From Syncephalis fuscata (Eukaryota; Zoopagomycota; Zoopagomycetes; Zoopagales; Piptocephalidaceae): 64,000 nt of DNA. This document shows, piece after piece, positions 38,962-52,162 of this stretch (the stretch's first letter is position 1; each line of letters begins with the position of its first letter). The notes beneath the pieces were generated by a model that saw nothing but the letters and a program-made list of their open reading frames with translations, did no database searches and was not told where the DNA came from. A program made the translations under genes and the position numbers. Where the stretch lies: assembly GCA_025786725.1 (NCBI GenBank), contig JAHLTZ010000019.1:124001-188000 (forward strand), read 5' to 3'.

Positions 38962-40989
38962 CTACAAATCTGTTACAATGGTCACCGTCTTCGTGTCCAT
39001 CGATGCCCATAGTCGTGATAGCTCACAGCCTTCCTCGCCGATACGGCACCAGTTCCTATAGGTAATAAAGCTTGTTTGGAAAGGTGGCCCTGCTTCAATT
39101 CGGGCCATTTGAGTGATGGTTGGCGCGTTAAGTTGCATCAATCGGTCTTCAGGCATTGCGACATAGCCTGTAATATCCAGACCACGTAGTTCTGGACACC
39201 GTGCCAATAGCTTTGATACATTAGTTTGGCTTATAACTAGATTATGGGCAATTAAACCACGCAATGCTGGCATAGCCAAATGATTAAAGCCATTATGCGT
39301 TGATGGCGATAAACAAGAAATATCTAGTAGAAATAATCGGTTACCGCACACTTTAGATAGCACCTTTATGCATTCAACTGATAGATTGGGTGATTTACAT
39401 AGCCGCAATAGTTGTAATTGGGGCAATTGAGAAAGCCAGCCAGCAAATACATCTGCCGTCCTCACTTCAATCCTATTATACAGCTCTAAACTAACAAGCT
39501 TGGGACAGAATTCGGGCAATTCAAGCACTAGTTGGTGATATTCTCGCTGTCTATTAATGAATAGACCCGACTGTTGATCTACAATAGGATGATCAAGTAG
39601 TAAATGGCGCAGTTCTGATAATTGAAACAATTGACCAAATAAATGTCGTATAAGCTCAACCTGAGAGGGTAGATTACATGCAATGTGTTCCAATTCCTTG
39701 CCTGCTTCCTCTAATATATGTGGCAGATGCTGTTGATCCATAGCAAGGCAGTTGACCATTTGTAATGAACGTAGATTTAGACGGGAAACTACCTTAAAGA
39801 TGCCTTTTTCTGTAACACGGAAACAGTGTGAAATATTCAAATGTCGCAATTTTAGACAGCCAATATTTGAATCAAATGTGTCTTCAATATTTGCTGTAGA
39901 TGTTTTTGTATCTATATTGCTGTTGTTTTTATGATTTTTGTTATCACTGCTTGCTGCTGGAAGTACCGAACCAATAAGTGTATACAGTCCACGATCTGTT
40001 ATACGAGCACAGCCTTTAAGAGATAGCCAACGTAGCGATTTGCCGTGGAGTAGAGCAATCAGTGATAGACTGGCATCAGTTACATTAATACAGCCGCTTA
40101 AATCTAGGCGTAATAGTCCAGGTCTTGACCGAATACTGGAAAGGCAAATGGCCAGTGTTGTTTCAGTAAGCTTGTCTAAACCGGCAAATGAAAGTACAGA
40201 AAGATGCGACATAATAGATGGCAGAAATTGGAAATCCGTCGATGAAAGCATATGACTCAGTTCAGGCGTGTTATGCCAATGTGCTATATCGAATATGCGT
40301 ACTTTTTCATAGCCAAATGAGCCATAGCGTCGATTTGCCACCAAACTACGCTTTGATGACGCTTGATTGTTTTGTTTTACCCGTTTAGATGGTCGATTAG
40401 CTTCAGCGTTTTCCATTTGGCTGAGTAGAAAGCGCTGAAACTTCATAAAGGAGGATAGCGATGGAAATCGAGGCATACGCCAAAGTAGATCGATCCCGCT
40501 AATGTACCACTTCTGGCAGACTCGTAAAGCACGAGCAAGATTGCGTAGAGTTGGTAGTTTCTGTGGACATGGTATGTTCGTGTAAAGTAACCGCTCTTGC
40601 CAGCCATCGCCTAGTCGGTCATAGCCACTATCGTCAGCATCAAGACGTTCTTCGGCCGCCAATAAGTTGATAGGGCACGAAGGCGATAGGTGAAGCAGTA
40701 CTAGCCGCAGTATTTCGACCGATAAGTCATTAGCGGCGGGTGGCTGGCGACGCGATGGCTTACACTGCACACCACTTCCATAAAAAGAGCTGGAACGTGC
40801 GCGAGCTTGTGCACGCATATGAGCACGTACACGCGCTAGACGTCTTCCGGTTACGTCTACGTTATCTGGCATAGAATAACTGCCGATTATTGCCAGATGT
40901 ACCAAGTCTAAGTTGCTTGGTAAAGGAAGATTACTCGGAAAAAAGTAAGCAAAGAGTTCGTTGACAATAGTATAGAAAAGACTCAACAT
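38962..40989 (-). CDS. F-box-like / leucine-rich-repeat protein
   Basis: Single-exon frame of 675 residues; a predicted SCF adaptor or LRR scaffold. An F-box-like region is at about residues 85-170 (NDLSVEILRLVLLHLSPS ... RALRVCQKWYISGIDLLWR), interrupted by an insertion of about 50 residues. LRRs follow: LRLDLSGCINVTDASLSLIA, WLSLKGCARITDRGLYTL, HLNISHCFRVTEKGIFKVV, VSLELYNRIEVRTADVF and GLDITGYVAMPEDRL. Start ATG 40989 has A at -3; the first 39 residues are hydrophobic, and Met40 (40872) is an alternative. It is unrelated in detail to the F-box gene at 14-16 kb except for the fold. The split F-box makes the call less certain than for that gene. Confidence 0.82.
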   Translation of the reverse strand: MLSLFYTIVNELFAYFFPSNLPLPSNLDLVHLAIIGSYSMPDNVDVTGRRLARVRAHMRAQARARSSSFYGSGVQCKPSRRQPPAANDLSVEILRLVLLHLSPSCPINLLAAEERLDADDSGYDRLGDGWQERLLYTNIPCPQKLPTLRNLARALRVCQKWYISGIDLLWRMPRFPSLSSFMKFQRFLLSQMENAEANRPSKRVKQNNQASSKRSLVANRRYGSFGYEKVRIFDIAHWHNTPELSHMLSSTDFQFLPSIMSHLSVLSFAGLDKLTETTLAICLSSIRSRPGLLRLDLSGCINVTDASLSLIALLHGKSLRWLSLKGCARITDRGLYTLIGSVLPAASSDNKNHKNNSNIDTKTSTANIEDTFDSNIGCLKLRHLNISHCFRVTEKGIFKVVSRLNLRSLQMVNCLAMDQQHLPHILEEAGKELEHIACNLPSQVELIRHLFGQLFQLSELRHLLLDHPIVDQQSGLFINRQREYHQLVLELPEFCPKLVSLELYNRIEVRTADVFAGWLSQLPQLQLLRLCKSPNLSVECIKVLSKVCGNRLFLLDISCLSPSTHNGFNHLAMPALRGLIAHNLVISQTNVSKLLARCPELRGLDITGYVAMPEDRLMQLNAPTITQMARIEAGPPFQTSFITYRNWCRIGEEGCELSRLWASMDTKTVTIVTDL

Positions 40990-42471
40990 GGTCCAGTTAC
41001 ACCGCTTTTTCTTTAGCCAGATACTGGCGCGTCGTTTTTAGTCTTTAGTGGCAAATAGCAAATGAAAGCACTTGGTATATACGACAGAATAGCGACAGGA
41101 AAAATTGGTTTGAATTGGTTTAGAATAAAATCTCACTATTTTTTATCATAATTACATTTGGTTAAATCGTCCAATTAAATTATAAAATAAATATTAAAAC
41201 TGCGTAAACTATTAGTTATTTGCACATGTTAGCAAAGGTATTTATAGTCAATAGCCTATTATATAATAATAAACAGTAGTAATTGATAAACATAGATTGT
41301 GCAAGTTAGCTTTTATATACATTAGCTTGTTTTATCCTTAATTGATAAACTAGCTTTAATTAAAGCTGTTTACGGATTTTAAACTCTACCAACATAACTA
41401 AATAAAGCAACAAAATAGAATTTGGCATTGTTTACATAGAAAATAATTAAGCTTTGCATTGAAAGTTTGTATAGTACTTGGTAACTTTTTGATAATAAAA
41501 TGTAGCTATGTGATCATTATAGTCATTCCAAGCTGATTTCGTATTAATCAAAACATGCAATAAATGGTTGACAATGCCGTTGAACAAGTCAAACACCCCT
41601 TTGTAAGTTATATATAGTAACTATTTGTATTTAGCATTTAGTAATGTTGAATATTGTAGATATACCAAATAAACTTGCTGGAATATTTTAACTTGATTTA
41701 ATGTGTATATAATGATCTGGCTTATCTTACCATTGCTAATAGTATTGTGCAAAACTAATTGTAAAGAATTAGTGCCAAATAGCACCATTCTAAATAAATA
41801 CATAATGGATCAATACATTTTTGTGCACTCAAATCAGCAGTAGGTGTATTCTTGCCAATAGTATAGATGTTGGCATAGTTTCATTAGGCATTATAAGAAT
41901 AAATATTACACCAGTTATTCTAAAGAAAACAGTAGTTGGCATAGTTGCAGTTGCCAAATATTACCAGTAGCATAGAAATATTGAATATTCCAGCATAATA
42001 TTAAAGTAAACAATTAACTCAGTAAGCAAGGCCTATAGCTGTTTAGTTGATGCTTGAGTAGACAATTTTTTCGTAAGCTATGAGTCAACATCAATAACAG
42101 ATAATTGTTTCTGTTTAGTTAAAAGGAGAGTTGTGCTTATTTAAAACTACAGCGATATAAATACGATGATTTAGCGTATTGTTTGCATAATAAATAAACA
42201 AATTGTGCAACACCAACCGTATAATAATTGTATTTTTAAATTATTTAGCATTGAAATTAAATTGTTACAATCTAAATGTAATTATTATAATACTACTGAC
42301 TCGGTAAAAGGCTCGGAAATAAAGCGACTATCGTTGGCAACTAATGTGTTTCTGAACCAACGGTTTGGTAATAATGACTCAACGTGTTTCCTTATTCTGT
42401 ATAAAACAACGCCTGTGAAAAAAATAACTCATATTAACTCTCTACTGCACAACATTATCAAATTTAGTTAC
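40990..42471. other. Divergent intergenic, F-box/LRR gene / RNA-repair gene
   Basis: 1.5 kb, strongly AT-rich. GATATAAATA near 42155 could be a TATA element. The frame of the downstream gene is open back to about 42205 but has no ATG there. No other gene is seen. Confidence 0.5.
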
Positions 42472-45400
42472 ATGGAAGGCAAGAACGCTGAAGAAGCTAT
42501 AACATTTCGTTGGGAGCGCGGATGCTTATTCGCAGTCGGTATAGCAATAGAGCAGTCGGTAAACAGCGATCTATTACCTGAAAAAACACAATTAGGAGCT
42601 AATAAACGACATGAACGCGATGGACAACATCATCACATCACTGTAATCCACCGCACTGAACTGGATAGCCTACTTAAACCGGCACCTACCAATTCATTTT
42701 CCACATGGCTAGCCAAACAACAAAAATCTCCCTCAATATCCAGTATGGATATGGCCGAAGCCTTGTGGCAAACCAAAAAGATATCTGTAAAGACTATGAC
42801 GAAGCCATCCGAATTATCCACCACTGAATGGAATGAATCACATTTGTTCGCAGACCTTGGACTAGGTAGCAATAAACAGGTTTACTATAAAGTGATCTGT
42901 TGGCCGTTTGGTGATGCCATTCGTGCTGCACTGGGACTATCCGTAAAGCAATTCCATATTACGGTTGGCTTTCAAGAGGCCGATCGCCATGACATTGACA
43001 AAGGACCCAATAGTCTGCGTGCAACCTACATTGGACTAAACAACAAAAAAGTGTATTTGCCGCTGGCGCGGGTCAGGCTTGGTATAACGATGGTAAAGCG
43101 GCAGTGTGAGTTGCTTCGAGATATTGATGCCATTGATGCAACGTTAAAGGCCCTGGAAATGCACTTGGACTATTGGCAAACACACGCCGACACCACTGTC
43201 GACGCCAATACTAAGCATGAGGTAGCTGAAGTTTACTACAGCTTGTTAGCGGCAAAAGCGTTTTTTATGCATCGTATTCGTGATGTTGATGGCTTGTTTG
43301 CAGTAGCACATGAAATGATAGCATGCCAACCATTGAACTACCAAGGATATGTCTATCAAGGAGATGCATATTTTCAACAGCAAAAACGGGATAGTGCAGC
43401 GTTTGTTTATTGGATTGCTTTGTCCTGTTTGGCTGCATCGTCGACGTCGGCATCTACTGTTGATGGTCTTGCACTGCAGAGTGCAGCTGCACGTCGTGCT
43501 CGCGATTACCTATGGCATGCACTAGAACGCTGCATGAAATATACAGACATATTCATTGAGCTCACTACGGATAACACGTCAATTCACACGAACAATGGGA
43601 TCGTTTACAGCACAATTACTATCATTGATACGTGATGCTTTTTGCAGCTACCTTTGTCAAAAGAATAATGATAATCCATTTGTATACAATGAGCAACAAA
43701 AAACCAATCTTGACCCTGTAGCAACTAAACGTCATTGGCTTGTCCAGCCTGGTAAAGAAGCCTATCGATTACCACGCTATTTTAGCTGGATAGTACCGTA
43801 TTTCTTAGCTGGAATGTCGACTCCACGATGCAGTGCTGATGTGCAAGCACTGCGATCAATTGGATTTTCTTTAGTAGCAACTGCTACTGTAGAAGAGCCT
43901 CTTCCTGCAGAATGGTTTGCTGATGCCAATAATATTAATAATAATACGGCTTTTAGTTTATATCAGCATAGCTTTGGCATATCCAACCTATTCCTTCCTG
44001 TGAAAAACTATGATCCACCAACAACAGCTCAGGTAGATGCATTTTTATTGGCTGCTGTAAAAGAACACGTAGCTAGCCATCGTAGCATGAAAATGGATAA
44101 TAGCACAGCCGACAATACACTTGGACAATGGAGGGCTGTACTGGTACACTGTGGAGGAGGAAAAGGCCGTGCTGGATGCTTTATTATAGGCTACTTACTA
44201 AGATATGGCTTATCAGCACCATGGCCAATGTGCAATACTTGCCAGGATGCAGTAATGTCACCATCAACTAGCCCGACTAACGAGAATGTTTTATGGTGCT
44301 TGGATACAAATTGTGTTCATAATCGACCACCTGCTATGTCGGCCGAGGATGCAGTGGCCTATCTCCGAAATGAACGTCCAGGCAGTATTGAGACAGAGCA
44401 GCAAATGTCATTTTTACGCAACTATGCTAGTAAATTATGGTGTCGATTTCAAAATTGCGGACAAGTTACAGATGCAGATGCATCTGAAAATGATGCAAAT
44501 ACATCGGATCCATTGTTACAAAATTTAAAAGTAACCGGCAATACGGCAGCTAATCCACATTTACTGTTGTTAGTTGGCTTGCCTGGTAGTGGCAAATCAT
44601 GGTTTTCTGAACAAATGGCCAAACGTAATCCAAATTGGAGAGTTGTGTCGCAGGATGAATTAGGTGGACGTGAGGCATTTGAGCGTGTTTTATCAAGTCA
44701 TACACGACAATTAGGACCGAATCATCGCGTTATTCTAGATCGTTGTCATGTTGATAAGAATTCGCGACAAACATCCTTAAAGTTGGCATTTCAGCCGTCG
44801 GCCGCACGGGTGGCAATTGTGTATTTTAATACAGATGTACGTACATGTGAGAAGCGAGCAGCTCATCGTATTTCACATCCTACGTTGATGGGTGAGCGAG
44901 CTAGTCGAGTTATTAAACAATTTGCAGCTCGATTGACGGTACCAACGCTTGAAGAGTGTAATGCATCAGTTATATGGCAAGTCAATAATCAAGCGGGTGC
45001 CGAACAGCTATTAAATCAACTATGTAAAGGCATTAGTATTGATGAAGTAATATCCAGCAAACTTGCCACCAAACTGTCTATAAATGTCGAGACCTCCACT
45101 AACAAAGATCAGTATTCTGCTATGAATCAGCCACTTCATCCTGATAGACCGCCAGTACTGCCACCATCAATGTCTAAAAGCAAAATGGCTGTAACATCAG
45201 AGGTGGCTTCATCTAGTAAAGTTGTTCGACATTTGTCCAATTTTTGCAAGTATCCACGAACTCAACATTTATCTAACTTGGGTGCTGCAACACGAGACGA
45301 TCTAGTACTTACTGCCAGGGACAGGGAGCGATTCTTTCAATGGCATCAAAAGAACAAGCGTACCATTACGGTAGAGGAGAAACTAGATGGTGCTAATGTT

Positions 45401-46087
45401 GGTATACGACTTGCTGCCAATATAAAGACGCGACTGGATGCTGACCATAGTGCGCAGCCATTTCTTGTTCAAAATCGTTCACACTATGTAACTTCTAAAG
45501 ATCATGTACAGTTTGAATCACTACGCTCTTATTTATTCCGCTACCGTGAAGCACTATTAGACATTTTGCTTTTAGATGATAATGATACTACTGAAGTGGA
45601 AACATCTAGCAGTTCAGCAGATTTGGAAGAAAATGAATTGGGCAGTCTTATTTTATTTGGTGAATGGCTTGCTGCTCGACATTCGGTAGAGTATACAAGT
45701 TTACCGGATCGATTTGTAGCATTTGATGTGTATGACACACGGACGAGCAAATTCTGGTCGCGACAACGCTTTCAAGCTGTAATGCAAAATAGCTCAGTGG
45801 CATGCGCTCCTACCATAATACAATGGCCAGCTAAAGAGGAAGCAGCGGCGGTGCCAGCAACATTCGACCTAGTTTTGTCGTATTTGGAACGCACATCGGC
45901 ATTTGGTACGACCAAGGTGGAGGGCGTCGTTGTACGAGTGGACGACGATCAGAATCACTGGCTATTGGACAAGGTTAAGCTTGTGCGTAGTGATTTTATA
46001 GCTGGTTGCGCATCAGGTCACTGGACAAAACGTCAAACTGTATGGAATGGCTTAGATGCTAGTGCCTATGACGTAGATGAAGAATAG
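42472..46087 (+). CDS. Multidomain RNA-repair-type enzyme: 2H phosphoesterase, phosphatase, kinase, RNA ligase
   Basis: Intronless. ATG 42472 starts MEGKNAEEAITFRWERG. Domain order: 2H phosphoesterase-like domain with motifs HITV at residues 55-58 and 162-165; a helical, possibly TPR-like region (about 205-350); then, in the +1 frame from about 43540-43635, a dual-specificity-type phosphatase with VLVHCGGGKGRAG (Cys codon 44150); a P-loop kinase with LLLVGLPGSGKSWF, SQDELG and LDRCHVDKNSRQ; and an RNA ligase with VEEKLDGANVGI (nucleophile Lys codon 45380), QNRSHYVT, FGEWLAARHSV and FVAFDVYD, TKVEGVVVRV and LLDKVKLVRSDF. Together about 1,200 residues. By family knowledge these could open 2',3'-cyclic ends, remove a phosphate, phosphorylate 5'-OH and seal. 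Yeast Trl1 has ligase-kinase-CPD order and no phosphatase. The two halves may be one gene with an indel, a programmed +1 shift, or two overlapping genes. Confidence 0.85.
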
Positions 46088-48763
46088 TAAAAAGTATAAT
46101 ATTAGTAGTTTTAATAATTGCAATAACAATAATCATAGTAATAAACAGTTTATACTTTATTTGCTACTTTGTCAGTATGCATAGGATAGAAATGGTACAG
46201 TAGCACATGCACATGCACACCACATGTACACCCAGCATTCCATGCTACTTGGTCCCCGTCTTCCTATTGACGGCCATTTAAATGAAGTGTTTGTTAATTG
46301 AATTGTATTCATTGTATAATTAGCTGATAGATATTAAATTACTTCTTGGCATAGTAAATACTATCAATAAAGTGTTGCTTATTTACTATTTATTCTTTTA
46401 CACTGAATCGACGTCATACTTTAGTTTTCTAATCACTGTTGCAATGGATAGACGATATTGTACACCCCCTCAAACATACATGGTATCACATGTAAGCTAG
46501 CCTTTACTTTCCTCCACCAGGGTGACACGAGTGAAGTCTCCAACAGTCAGCATTACCTTGTGAAAGCCAAGTTGGTAATGATATTCATTGACATTTGTTT
46601 GGATACCAGCCATTATTAAGTTTATTAATATGGGAATCATTTCAATTTCATTAATGTTGTCATTTGTTCTTTCACTTGTTATTTTATGCACCAAGTGCTT
46701 TGATCTAAACTGTTTAACTCGTGTTTATTCGTGTAGATTTGTAAAAGTTACAGTTTTATTGGTCTAGGTTAAATTCCGTTCAACCATCTTTGGACGACAG
46801 TAATTGCCATAAATTGTAATATTTTTTGAAATAGCCTAAAGCGGCGGTTGCCCTGTTCTCTCATCTCTCTCTCACACACTCACTCACTCACTCTGTGTCT
46901 ATCTGTCTGTCTGCCTGTTTCTCCCCGACCTAACAACCACCGCTCAACCAATGCCAATTATAGTTGTTGAGCACGATATTTGTCTTTTATTTACGTTTCA
47001 AGCTTGCCACCACAACGCTTTCCTTATGGTTTTTCCTTCTACTTGTTTTTAACCGTTTCCACCGCTTAATTTACCACTTTTTAATTTCTTTCTACTTCAA
47101 AGAAAAGCAGTCGGTCTTTTCTATCCTTGTTGGTCCATTTATTGGACAGTATTATTCATTTTACGTTGTTATTGGCGTTATTCTCTACATCCTGCACATC
47201 AATCGCCTAGTTCTGGCATATCCAGCCTTTTTTGCCTTTTACTTGCTTCTGTTGGTGCAATTACTCGACAACGACAATAATAATAGTAAACAGTAATTGC
47301 TAGTATCTTTCGGCGCAAGTAGACTACGCCAACTACTATTAATACTATTAATACTATTATTAATAACACTATTGCTATTACTATTGCTACTATTATCAAT
47401 TGTTGCTGTGACTTTCACCAGCCTGTGTGCTTATATATTTTCTATATCTTTTGTTCTATTTTTATTTACTATTACACTTACGACCACGACAAAGATTGAT
47501 TCGTTGTTATAACTTTTGTTCAGGTAAGCAATACTGCATCTATTCTATGTCGTGCCATGTCTACTTGCTGCACAAGGGTCGCTTCCATTCGGCTCATATT
47601 TGGGCACGGCCAGTACACACTACTGCTCTATGAATTACTATATTGAGTATGCAGGCTCATGCCTTGCTATCTTGCTCATCCTTCCATTCCTTTATCCACT
47701 GAGCTACAGCATGCTTCGTTCTTACATAACTCGTTTTACTCTACCCTTCACATCTAAACGTCATCAATGATACTGGACCGGTTTAATCCTGTTGTCTGGA
47801 CTCCGTATGTAAGAACAATAGTGTCAGAAGCCATGCTATTGCTACCATTGCTATTGCTACTGCTACTGCTACTACTGTTATTGTTGTTCATTATTTACCG
47901 CAACAAGAAAATGTATTTCGCAGTCTCGGCCTTGTATGACGTGTAGCTCTACAGCAATATTATCTGTCTGCATACCACATGTATTCACTGATATAACAAC
48001 AGCTGCATATCGTGTATCACACTTAACCAATCCCAATGGCATGGCGTTAACCAATTAAAAGATGGAAGCTGCCGACTTGCAAATGCCACGCGTGCATCTA
48101 TATCGCATCTTTATGTCGACCGTTGCTTCAAAGTCACAGCTGGTTTTACCGGCCGTCCATGAACATGTGGATATCTATTGAGAGAAGCTAACCGCTTCAT
48201 CTTATTTGCTGCGCCTGTCTTCCACATGATACTGGTATGCATATCCACATCCACCCTTGTAGTATTGATTCGACGCATCTGCTCGTTCATTTGTCCATTT
48301 GCTTGCTCATCGCTCGTTATCTACATACTTACTTTTTAGTTGCTTGTCAGGGCTCCCGCCTTTATTATTATTTCCTTATCATCTTCAATTCCTACTCTTC
48401 TTCTTCCTCCTCCCCTTTACAGTTCACTCCTACGCCGAGTGCACTTTCTCCTTTTTTTCTATATCGCCTATTTCCCCGCTACTTATCACCATTATCTATT
48501 GCGTTTGGTTGTGGGCCACTTTGTTTTTATATTACCGTGCCCCTTGTGCCTCCTTTTTGCCTATACATTGACTCAGGAACGGTAGTCTCCTTCATACAGA
48601 CATACATACGGGATTATCGGTCTTGAGCTCCACTGGTTTTTTTGTTGGTATTATTGTTTGTTTACCATTAGCTTTTACTTTTACTACGTCTACAACGACA
48701 GCACGCCCGTTTATACTTGCACACGTTTACATACACGTCTACACATACACTCACATATACCTA

Positions 48764-48792
48764 ACAACAACAACAACAACAACAACAACAAT
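48764..48792. repeat. (CAA)n microsatellite
   Basis: About nine CAA/ACA units in the gene-free region. Confidence 0.8.
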
Positions 48793-49157
48793 AGTCATAA
48801 CCAAAACAATACTCACCTTTACTACTACACTTACAATTACATCCATTACTATCAATACTACTACACACCGCTTACTTTCTACTTTTACTTTACTACTTCA
48901 CTTTTACCGCTACTACTACTGCTACTACATTGTGGAATATACCTGACCCGGCTTACAATTTCTTTTTTGTTTTATTCATTCTCTGTTTCAATTTGAACGC
49001 GCGACAGTCGTACTTTCTTTCTTGTTGTTTACTTCGTCGACACTTTTATTTGCATTCGTACTTTGCTGTATCGCATCCATTGTCTTTTTGTTTCACTACA
49101 AGCGTTACTCTGTAAGTTTGTATCATTGACGTGGGTATTTTTATACTTGCTATACTT

Positions 49158-49178
49158 ATATATATATATATATATATG
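49158..49178. repeat. (AT)n microsatellite
   Basis: About ten TA units in the gene-free region. (CAT)n follows at 49500-49522 and CGACAA repeats at 49450-49475. Confidence 0.7.
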
Positions 49179-50710
49179 AGTAATATTTTAATACTGTATT
49201 ATTGATAGTTAATCGCTATTTTATAATCAACTATTTATTTTTGACACTTTTACTAACAAATTGTCATAAATACATCTGGGGAATTGATAATAGCTATAGT
49301 ATCAAGAGAAGCGTCGTTATTAGCGGTTCTTACTCGATTATCATTTAAATCGGCTATCAGTATCCATATCGGCACGTCCATTTCGTTTTCATTACTATTA
49401 CACCTACGATTATTTTATTACTGCTAGTACTACAATAGTTATTATTCGACGACAACGACAACGACAACGATAGCGACAATAAGTATCGTCATCGCCACTA
49501 ACATCATCATCATCATCATCACCACCAACAACGACAACAACAACAACAACGATATCATCACTATCATTATCATCGCTTGACAGCAAACGATAATATCTAA
49601 AGAAAAACCAATTACTTATAAGCTAAAACGTCTGCCTCCGTCAACGATAAATCATCTGGATGATCTGTGTACCGCTGTACTGTTAGACTGCTACTATTCT
49701 GTGTTATTGTTGCTCTTTACAGCCTCTACTTACAGACGTTAGCACCGAAAGTGGCCTTTCTTTCTGTCCTACACGTCACTATACCCAAAATTACTCATAG
49801 TATTTAGCTTTCCATCGGCTGGCCGACCATTTCCAGAACCGGTGACGTTAATATTCGTGTTCTTCTTTTCTAGTCAAGAGAATACTACCAAATCAATTTG
49901 AAGCTTTGACGGTTACGCCATATCATTCTACGCGTGCGCGCTACTTGAACCATTGTTGTAGTTTGCCTATCATCGTGTGGGTGATTTCAAAGCTATTAGC
50001 AACGTATCTGGCATTACTTGCGCTAGCATTGTAGTGTGTGCAGTCTAAGTTTTATCTAACGTTCTAGCGTACGATCTTTAATATCGCTTACTTATGTTCA
50101 TGCAGTAAGTCAGCAACACACTACTGTTTGGTTTTCCTTGTTGCCGTAGCGTTTATCGGCTACTTTACCTTTTCTTTCCGTTGTAGACTGCTTGTCTAAT
50201 TTGCAAAGTATCCATTCCCGCACTCTATTGTCTAATCTATCGATATTGAATGCATTCGAGTCAATAAGAACAGTCCAGTAGCATTTGTTTTTCTTTTACT
50301 TATTTGCCGTCTATCAAGATTTGCTTCTACAACAAATACCATCACCACTACCGCTTTTACTACCACTACCTCCATTTACATTTATTTTCTACTCCAGTGT
50401 ACTCCACTGCTCTCCTTGAATCAAGCAACAAGGTGAAACGCGGTTAGTTCGACTACTGTTAAGCAATAGCATTTCTATTACCGCGTTTGGTCAGTACACA
50501 TCACCAATCACCGCCACACACACACACACACCCTCTCTGTTATTATCGAACCATTATTCGTTACTACCAGAGGATAGTGAGTGAGTGTTTTGAGCACATA
50601 ACGCTATCTACCTTTGTTTGACCACCTTTGAAAGGTAAGTTTACGATAACCATGGTGGGGGATAGGACAAGCGCATCCGCCTTTCTTCTTTATGTTGCGA
50701 TGTATCACTT

Positions 50711-50754
50711 GACTTTTCGATGTATCAATTTGTGATTACTTACATCGAAAAGTC
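50711..50754. repeat. 14-bp perfect inverted repeat (hairpin)
   Basis: GACTTTTCGATGTA at 50711-50724 is the exact reverse complement of 50741-50754, with a 16-nt loop. Confidence 0.85.
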
Positions 50755-50787
50755 GTAAAATGTCTTATGACGATTATCGGTGTTTCA

Positions 50788-50901
50788 CTTTCCATTTAAA
50801 TTATTGTGTTAAAATAGCACATTGTCATTGGATGTGTACAAGCTACGCACACTCAATGACATGTGTTCAGCTGTGACCGTTATGTCCAGCTAAATGGAAA
50901 G
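50788..50901. repeat. Nested inverted repeats
   Basis: CTTTCCATTTA at 50788-50798 pairs perfectly with TAAATGGAAAG at 50891-50901. Inside, TGTCATTG (50823-50830) pairs with CAATGACA (50854-50861), with a further TGTG/CACA pair inside that. Suggests a structured RNA or protein-bound DNA element. Confidence 0.75.
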
Positions 50902-52162
50902 GTCTGCCTTTGAAAAGTTGGCCTTTCCTATCCGCGCTTGTTCACGTTTCCTGTTTCCATTCTGGCTCACCTGAGTGGTTAACAAGTTTCAACACCCGCT
51001 TTCTTTCTTTCTTCCTTCCATGTATGTATGTGTGTGTGAGTGTGTGGATGACCACTTTCATGCAATGTTTTATTTCTTCCTTGAATGTGTGTTGACTTCG
51101 TCTTCACTCCCACATTCACTGAGTGACTGAGTGACTGTGAGAGTCAAGGCCAGGTCTCTTATCAAGGAGAAAATAAGACACTGCATGAGAGTGGGACCAT
51201 CACTTACTCACACACACACACATTCATTCATATAATATGATTTGATACACGGTTGATTTGGGGTGTGCCACCGCTTTCTTTCCCTTTTGTCATTTTTTTT
51301 GTTCACTTTCAAAATAGTAACGGCGGCAGCAGTGACACTTTATTAAGTCTACATATTTCCAGGCAACGACCCGTGAAGCTTAAACATTGCTTCGCATATT
51401 CTCTAACTACGACCAAACTTTTAGTTCTATCCTTTCTGTTTAGTCGTTTTTTCGTTTATTAACGCTCGCTTGTTGTTTAACCAAGTGCCTGCTTGCCTTT
51501 CGTTTTTTATTACGTTCGCTTTCCTTTTCTCGCTCTATTCCACCTCGTCTATTCATTTGGCGTATTCTTCTGTTCTACGAGATCCGTGCCGTCATCTTGC
51601 TATTCCCTTCATTCCAGCACTTGAGTAGCTCAATCTATACTTGTGCGGCTTTGATTGCGTTATCCATTCTAGCTGTGTAGCATTTAGAGACGTTTACTTT
51701 GTTCGATTGACGACGACGTTCTATACACACGTACCCACGTACGCATACACTTACACACAGCAAAAAAGAATTGACGTACGCCGCTACGCTGGACGTCTGC
51801 AGTCATTGTTTACAGCTTATTTCAATTCTTGGACTGAAGAAAAATATTGTGGCTATCGGTGTTGATTACTGTTAAAGTTTTCCCTAAATTGGCTGTAGAC
51901 ATTACGCTAAATCAATTTATGCTTGCCTATCATTATTGCCAATATATACATATGTATTAGTTGCCGTTGTGCCGTGGCTGTTTTATTAGCTTACACGTAC
52001 TTATCACACATTATATCTACATTGCCCCCGGCTAGGCTAGCTATTCCATATCGACCATTGTTGATTAGCAAAACACTACCCAACTACCTTTACTACTTTT
52101 ACTAGTATCACTACTACTAACACTACCATTCCACATCTATTTACCTATTAGCAAGCGTAGAT

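Follow-up and report, generated by a model that had tools for sequence, protein, structure and literature searches.

Among the described systems closest to the gene considered here, Trl1 combines ligase, kinase and 2H-type activities in one chain, while the 3' phosphatase of PNKP is a HAD phosphatase. Pfam already names two domains, 2H-SAK (PF22547) and PTP-SAK (PF22784), for a 'Swiss Army Knife' (SAK) protein. In the open-licence literature searched, no biochemical study of a SAK protein was found, nor was anything on such a protein found under the SAK names; two papers in Viruses apply 'Swiss-army-knife' to a HAD phosphatase (PMC7824862, PMC9503650). We analysed a 64,000-nucleotide stretch from Syncephalis fuscata (GCA_025786725.1, contig JAHLTZ010000019.1, positions 124,001 to 188,000), hereafter the window. 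On its forward strand, positions 42472-46087 quite probably form a gene for a fungal RNA repair protein of the SAK type, about 1,180 residues long, which would perform a five-step heal-and-seal cycle. The initial annotation, made from the DNA letters, knew this architecture from no described enzyme. As regards the family, the Pfam names and the same-order fungal homologues at NCBI go against this statement. A new architecture was therefore rejected: the window protein is a real, well-conserved member of a catalogued family.

Four Pfam profiles match the protein far beyond chance: 2H-SAK (70 bits against a cut-off of 27, 2.9e-19), PTP-SAK (127.9 bits against 27, 4.3e-37), AAA_33 (PF13671; 44.7 bits against 27, 2.2e-11) and RNA_ligase (PF09414; 86.9 bits against 27, 2.3e-24). 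Every motif listed in the initial annotation is present (HCGGGKGRAG, GLPGSGKS, DELG, DRCHVDKN, EEKLDGANVG, FGEW, VEGVVVRV and DKVKLV). The two H-x-S/T-x motifs of 2H phosphoesterases are both HITV and start at residues 55 and 162, that is, 107 residues apart as it had described. The phosphatase has the PTP fold with its HCX5R loop. In the ligase, EKLDGAN (KxDG), FGEW, EGVVV and KVKLVR are found, which we take to be motifs I, III, IV and V; Lys947 is presumably the AMP acceptor. The profile of the helical region resembles TPR chains, with no single stretch passing alone. The kinase part has four weak NCBIfam matches, led by PNK-3'Pase (7.5e-8, far below its cut-off), and the first half of the protein has none. 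The nearest solved chains to the kinase are 9drz and 9d8a, followed by PNKP and bacterial polynucleotide kinases. These closest solved relatives of the SAK kinase, from Lichtheimia (9drz) and Rhizopus (9d8a), are kinases of about 165-176 residues solved with GDP; nothing on their biology was found in the literature searched. The structure model of the window protein has a mean pLDDT of 67.8, and the domain matches alone were used. The parts of the gene are arranged as follows.

42472..43577, + strand: first coding part, from the start ATG at 42472, covering residues 1-368 and two bases of codon 369, with the 2H domain and the helical TPR-like region
42598..42990, + strand: 2H phosphoesterase domain (2H-SAK, PF22547, profile positions 28-124 of 124)
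42634..42645, + strand: first 2H motif HITV, residues 55-58 (H55 column nearly invariant in alignment A3)
42955..42966, + strand: second 2H motif HITV, residues 162-165 (H162 column nearly invariant in alignment A3)
43027..43575, + strand: helical, TPR-like linker, approximate bounds (homologue-model helices at 137-256)
43578..43647, + strand: candidate 70-nt intron GTCAAT...TTTTTGCAG (GT-AG join), or frame-change region
43648..46087, + strand: second coding part (PTP, kinase, ligase), in open frame 43556-46087
43772..44413, + strand: cysteine phosphatase domain (PTP-SAK, PF22784), VHZ/DUSP23-like
44006..44008, + strand: Asn489, at the usual acid-loop Asp position (VHZ Asp65; alignment to 4erc and 25xa)
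44147..44176, + strand: phosphatase loop HCGGGKGRAG (Cys537, Arg543)
44390..44404, + strand: Q-loop with Glu617 and Gln621 (VHZ Glu134 and Gln138 positions)
44561..44941, + strand: P-loop polynucleotide kinase domain (PF13671, 2.2e-11)
44576..44599, + strand: Walker A loop GLPGSGKS
45362..45952, + strand: RNA ligase nucleotidyltransferase domain (PF09414, 2.3e-24)
45377..45403, + strand: ligase motif I EKLDGANVG, with Lys947

Two homologue searches, limited by length range and with 7,998 and 7,995 candidates scored, returned seven proteins each, one of them repeated, which makes 13 different homologues. Those named come from Entophlyctis luteolus, two Mycena species and Polyrhizophydium stewartii; the best-scoring relative, from Entophlyctis luteolus, shows 30% identity at 88% coverage. 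According to the database's precomputed domain calls, all four domains are found in 10 of the 13, whereas P0002 is cut short and P0012 is without the 2H domain. The initial annotation had suggested looking for the same domain order in early-diverging fungi. The 2H-PTP-kinase-ligase order is common to the window protein and the named fungal homologues P0001 (Entophlyctis), P0003 and P0004 (Mycena). The phosphatase Cys and Arg and the ligase Lys-x-Asp-Gly are kept in all 14 sequences (window protein and 13 homologues). Thirteen of them also have the Walker A lysine, the exception being P0007 with GLPGSGRA. Both 2H motifs occur in 10 of the 12 sequences that span the domain (window protein, P0001, P0004-P0006, P0008-P0011 and P0013). 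It should be noted that P0006 was omitted from alignments A1-A4, and P0002 and P0012 from A3, in which the last part of the helical region is scattered. A single-protein heal-and-seal RNA enzyme, as first proposed, is well supported by its domains, its conserved catalytic residues and its homologues.

From the sequence, we infer the following cycle, including its substrate and the joining of the two reading frames on which it depends. The substrate would be RNA cut by a metal-independent ribonuclease, with 2',3'-cyclic phosphate and 5'-OH ends. The 2H domain would first convert the cyclic phosphate to a monophosphate. Then, the VHZ-like phosphatase would strip this monophosphate via Cys537, with Glu617 as the acid rather than a loop aspartate. 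The kinase would phosphorylate the 5'-OH, after which the ligase would adenylate itself at Lys947, adenylate the 5' end and seal. As a fifth element, the helical region may serve to keep the parts, or a partner, in place. The sealed junction would be free of the 2'-phosphate left by Trl1, making Tpt1 unnecessary. In this fungus, SAK would work beside Trl1, most likely repairing RNA cut by toxins or stress nucleases.

Several observations weigh against this proposal. 2H chains are not among the structure matches listed, which are taken up by PTP, kinase and ligase chains; for the homologue model, these are PTP and kinase chains. The loop Asp is absent from the SAK phosphatase, so that a weak or different activity is possible. 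Moreover, not every member would be able to carry out each step alike. P0003 has HILL at the second 2H motif, and P0007 (Polyrhizophydium stewartii) has lost both 2H histidines and an intact kinase loop but keeps the phosphatase and ligase motifs; it is either a member reduced to fewer steps or partly a gene-model error. P0006, which has 1,182 aa and whose longest listed contig measures 3,854 bases, has the order PTP-kinase-ligase-2H, with the 2H domain near the C-terminal end; it may have been rearranged, or two neighbouring gene pieces may have been taken for a single gene. No Syncephalis SAK protein, annotated S. fuscata included, is among the homologue-search matches listed; since Syncephalis is in the database, public gene models may lack the SAK gene, and its distribution across the genus may be patchy. 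Finally, a frame break separates the 2H/helical half from the PTP-kinase-ligase half, and the candidate donor GTCAAT is unlike the GTAAGA, GTAAGT and GTAAAT of three nearby 6PGD introns (read by eye).

The point of interest in this protein is the chemistry of its phosphatase, which is open to testing. Profile alignment places Asn489 at the acid-loop position, which is Asp65 in DUSP23 and also an Asp in 25xa. This Asn is found in 14 of 14 SAK sequences and is invariant in the 13 rows of alignment A2. The Q-loop Glu and Gln (VHZ 134 and 138) are likewise kept in all 14, with a short insertion between them in P0001, and the loop HCGGGKGR keeps the archaeal GG. Three papers describe related enzymes: in VHZ, the main general acid is reportedly Glu134, and Asp65 comes second (PMC9038691); Tk-PTP uses both Asp63 and Glu132 as acids, and Gln136 matters (PMC5965843); in the engineered ShufPTP, an Asp-to-Asn change costs about 70-fold while the back-up acid remains (PMC12848742). 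The natural reading is that the SAK phosphatase would be a one-acid version of the dual-acid class. Alternatively, it is possible that its substrate differs, as for AtPFA-DSP1 or MCE1, whose loops are without the WPD motif. We do not claim the Asp-to-Asn change as unpublished. Tentatively, we put forward a new RNA-end phosphatase built on the PTP fold, in which the VHZ-type Q-loop Glu or a neighbouring ribose hydroxyl would replace the Asp in removing a 2'- or 3'-phosphate; the protein would then be a Tpt1-independent, one-chain route to clean junctions, kept beside Trl1 by some fungi.

It is unlikely that the phosphatase instead acts on another substrate (a 5' di- or triphosphate, an inositol pyrophosphate or a protein), with RNA joining otherwise Trl1-like. 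The Asn found in all 14 sequences would fit such a role. So would the acid loops without WPD of MCE1, baculovirus RNA 5'-phosphatase, AtPFA-DSP1 and Siw14; MCE1 is a capping enzyme, and AtPFA-DSP1 and Siw14 are PP-InsP phosphatases (PMC9038691). Siw14 and AtPFA-DSP1 are also among the structure matches. However, the nearest structure is VHZ, the alternative-acid Glu and Gln of which are kept in 14 of 14 sequences, and the 2H domain of the same chain would yield a monophosphate that has to be removed before a standard ligase can act. Furthermore, a Gly stands immediately before the Arg of the SAK loop, where capping phosphatases have an Asn. That the PTP module acts as an RNA triphosphatase is retained solely as a rival to the RNA-end phosphatase.

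The heal-and-seal proposal also depends on whether both halves are joined. In the open reading frame (ORF) listing, 42472 is the first ATG in the open frame 42205-43635, and the stop codon of the gene lies at 46085-46087. The two halves are in different frames, and their ORFs overlap by 80 bases (43556-43635). Excising 43578-43647 leaves 1,181 residues without a stop, and the acceptor TTTTTGCAG is good-looking, but many alternative joins likewise keep the frame open. The break between frames may come from an intron, from an indel in the assembly or from a genuine change of frame. By eye, the translated 'intron' had looked like a helix of the homologues. This idea was unsupported, as the second half scores equally with and without the disputed stretch (602.7 versus 603.4 bits) against a profile of 12 homologues. 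The initial annotation had spoken of one polypeptide and had not mentioned the break. Because two frames need an intron or a frame change, we infer one polypeptide rather than see it. Nevertheless, in each of ten homologues a single protein record contains the four enzyme domains, which argues for a single gene, and both halves are likely joined as one protein in Syncephalis fuscata, as far as sequence can tell.

It is quite unlikely that the locus is a decaying gene, in which the frame change at 43556-43635 is disabling and the full protein is not made. The two frames with no consensus donor, the absence of an annotated S. fuscata SAK protein among the homologue-search matches listed, and the one relative (P0007) without 2H and kinase motifs would all agree with decay. 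On the other hand, the frame is otherwise open over about 1,180 codons, no damage was seen in the catalytic motifs checked, the acceptor-like TTTTTGCAG brings the frame back, and an assembly indel would give the same picture. Two separate genes, one for a 2H-helical protein and one for a PTP-kinase-ligase protein, are very improbable: the frames are separate and overlapping, and the 2H domain is partly or wholly missing in 2 of the 13 homologue records (P0002 and P0012, both on short contigs), but 2H, PTP, kinase and ligase stand in one record for P0001, P0003-P0006, P0008-P0011 and P0013 (with a different order in P0006), and the overlapping ORFs leave little space for a second promoter.

The genome is available as a 29-Mb assembly of 299 contigs with the window on contig C101. 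Over 339 residues, the 6-phosphogluconate dehydrogenase (6PGD) encoded in the window shows 100% identity to that of Syncephalis fuscata, 94% to that of S. pseudoplumigaleata and 88% to that of S. plumigaleata, which points to S. fuscata or a very near relative. The species belongs to the Piptocephalidaceae (Zoopagomycota, Zoopagomycotina), whose members are mycoparasites. At E <= 0.001, the SAK gene is the only genome match to PF09414, and an exon at C289:4862-5446 is the only one to PF09511 (Trl1-type ligase). A PF08302 exon (Trl1 cyclic phosphodiesterase, CPD) is found at C289:6478-7083 and Tpt1 exons at C278:196800-197207 and 197332-197556; no RtcB candidate was found in the genome. These are the three enzymes whose presence the initial annotation had asked about. 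To judge from these exons, the fungus has the usual fungal tRNA-splicing set (Trl1-type ligase and CPD, Tpt1), and SAK is additional to it. Replacement of Trl1 by SAK is disfavoured by these exons. The protein had first been thought to join or repair RNA alone; since Trl1-type and Tpt1 exons are present and RtcB is not found, a sole tRNA-joining role is disfavoured, while an accessory role in repair is favoured.

The only other genome match to PTP-SAK, at C1:462905-463012, reaches 27.1 bits against the cut-off of 27. The protein there has long low-complexity stretches and the loop HCSAGCGRTG, and resembles a common tyrosine phosphatase. Of the other ORFs in the window, eight were scanned. Common Pfam families account for six (GDSL lipase, F-box/LRR, DUF1749, eIF3c, Peptidase_C54 and amino-acid transporter) and two have no match, including, just upstream of the SAK gene, the ORF at 38965-40989. 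None of these eight ORFs points to RNA repair. Downstream of the SAK gene, at 46001-52000, the GC skew is negative, down to -0.27.

Outside SAK proteins, the closest ligases by identity are stand-alone bacterial enzymes (up to 36%, among the best 80 of 498 relatives); viral ligases reach about 32% among the best. A bacterial operon with the same parts was sought and rejected: in 0 of these 80 loci does a kinase, PTP or 2H profile match lie beside the ligase in the fetched flanks (at most 5 kb each side, some short). Kinase and ligase are near each other in 11 of 35 viral loci; a kinase near the ligase is the usual phage arrangement. A quick ligase tree, in which long branches are joined, has 94 rows; after an arbitrary number rule and a 180-residue minimum, it keeps 56 of the 80 loci from bacteria and 24 of the 35 from viruses. 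In this tree, the 14 SAK ligases group together (support 91, not starred), which is in keeping with one fusion but is not proof of it. Over long branches, they lie closer to viral rows than to most of the bacterial ones. The smallest starred set around the window ligase holds 21 viral, 14 SAK and 2 bacterial rows. Since this set is made mostly of viral and SAK rows, a simply bacterial origin is unsupported.

If the proposed cycle is true, a single fungal protein could repair cut RNA unaided and, in contrast to the Trl1-Tpt1 route of fungi, without leaving a 2'-phosphate. A PTP-fold enzyme with an uncommon arrangement of acids would have gained a role at RNA ends, and the question of how early-diverging fungi suffer and repair RNA damage would become directly testable. 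The protein could also be used as a one-enzyme tool to join RNAs that have cyclic-phosphate ends.

Compared with the catalogued SAK proteins, the window protein likewise has both SAK domains, each scoring above its curated cut-off, and then a kinase and a ligase of the PF09414 family; it differs by low identity to the best-scoring relative (30% over 88%), by long insertions and by the frame break. Like Trl1, it has ligase, kinase and 2H-type activities, as predicted, in one chain. However, as the initial annotation had described, the order is reversed, and a phosphatase and a helical region are extra. Moreover, the ligase is of the PF09414 and not the PF09511 type (PF09511 is not among the Pfam matches of the protein at E <= 1), and the 2H domain is 2H-SAK, so that neither the PF08302 CPD domain nor the ligase-kinase-CPD order of Trl1 is found. 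VHZ/DUSP23 and the archaeal Tk-PTP differ from the SAK phosphatase by their loop Asp, since each of the 14 SAK sequences examined has an Asn there. PNKP, bacterial Pnkp1 and the fungal 9drz and 9d8a chains resemble the SAK kinase in fold and sequence, but the predicted 3' phosphatase beside the kinase is PTP-type in SAK, in contrast to PNKP. Finally, the stand-alone bacterial PF09414-type RNA ligases share their ligase domain with SAK, at identities of up to 36%.
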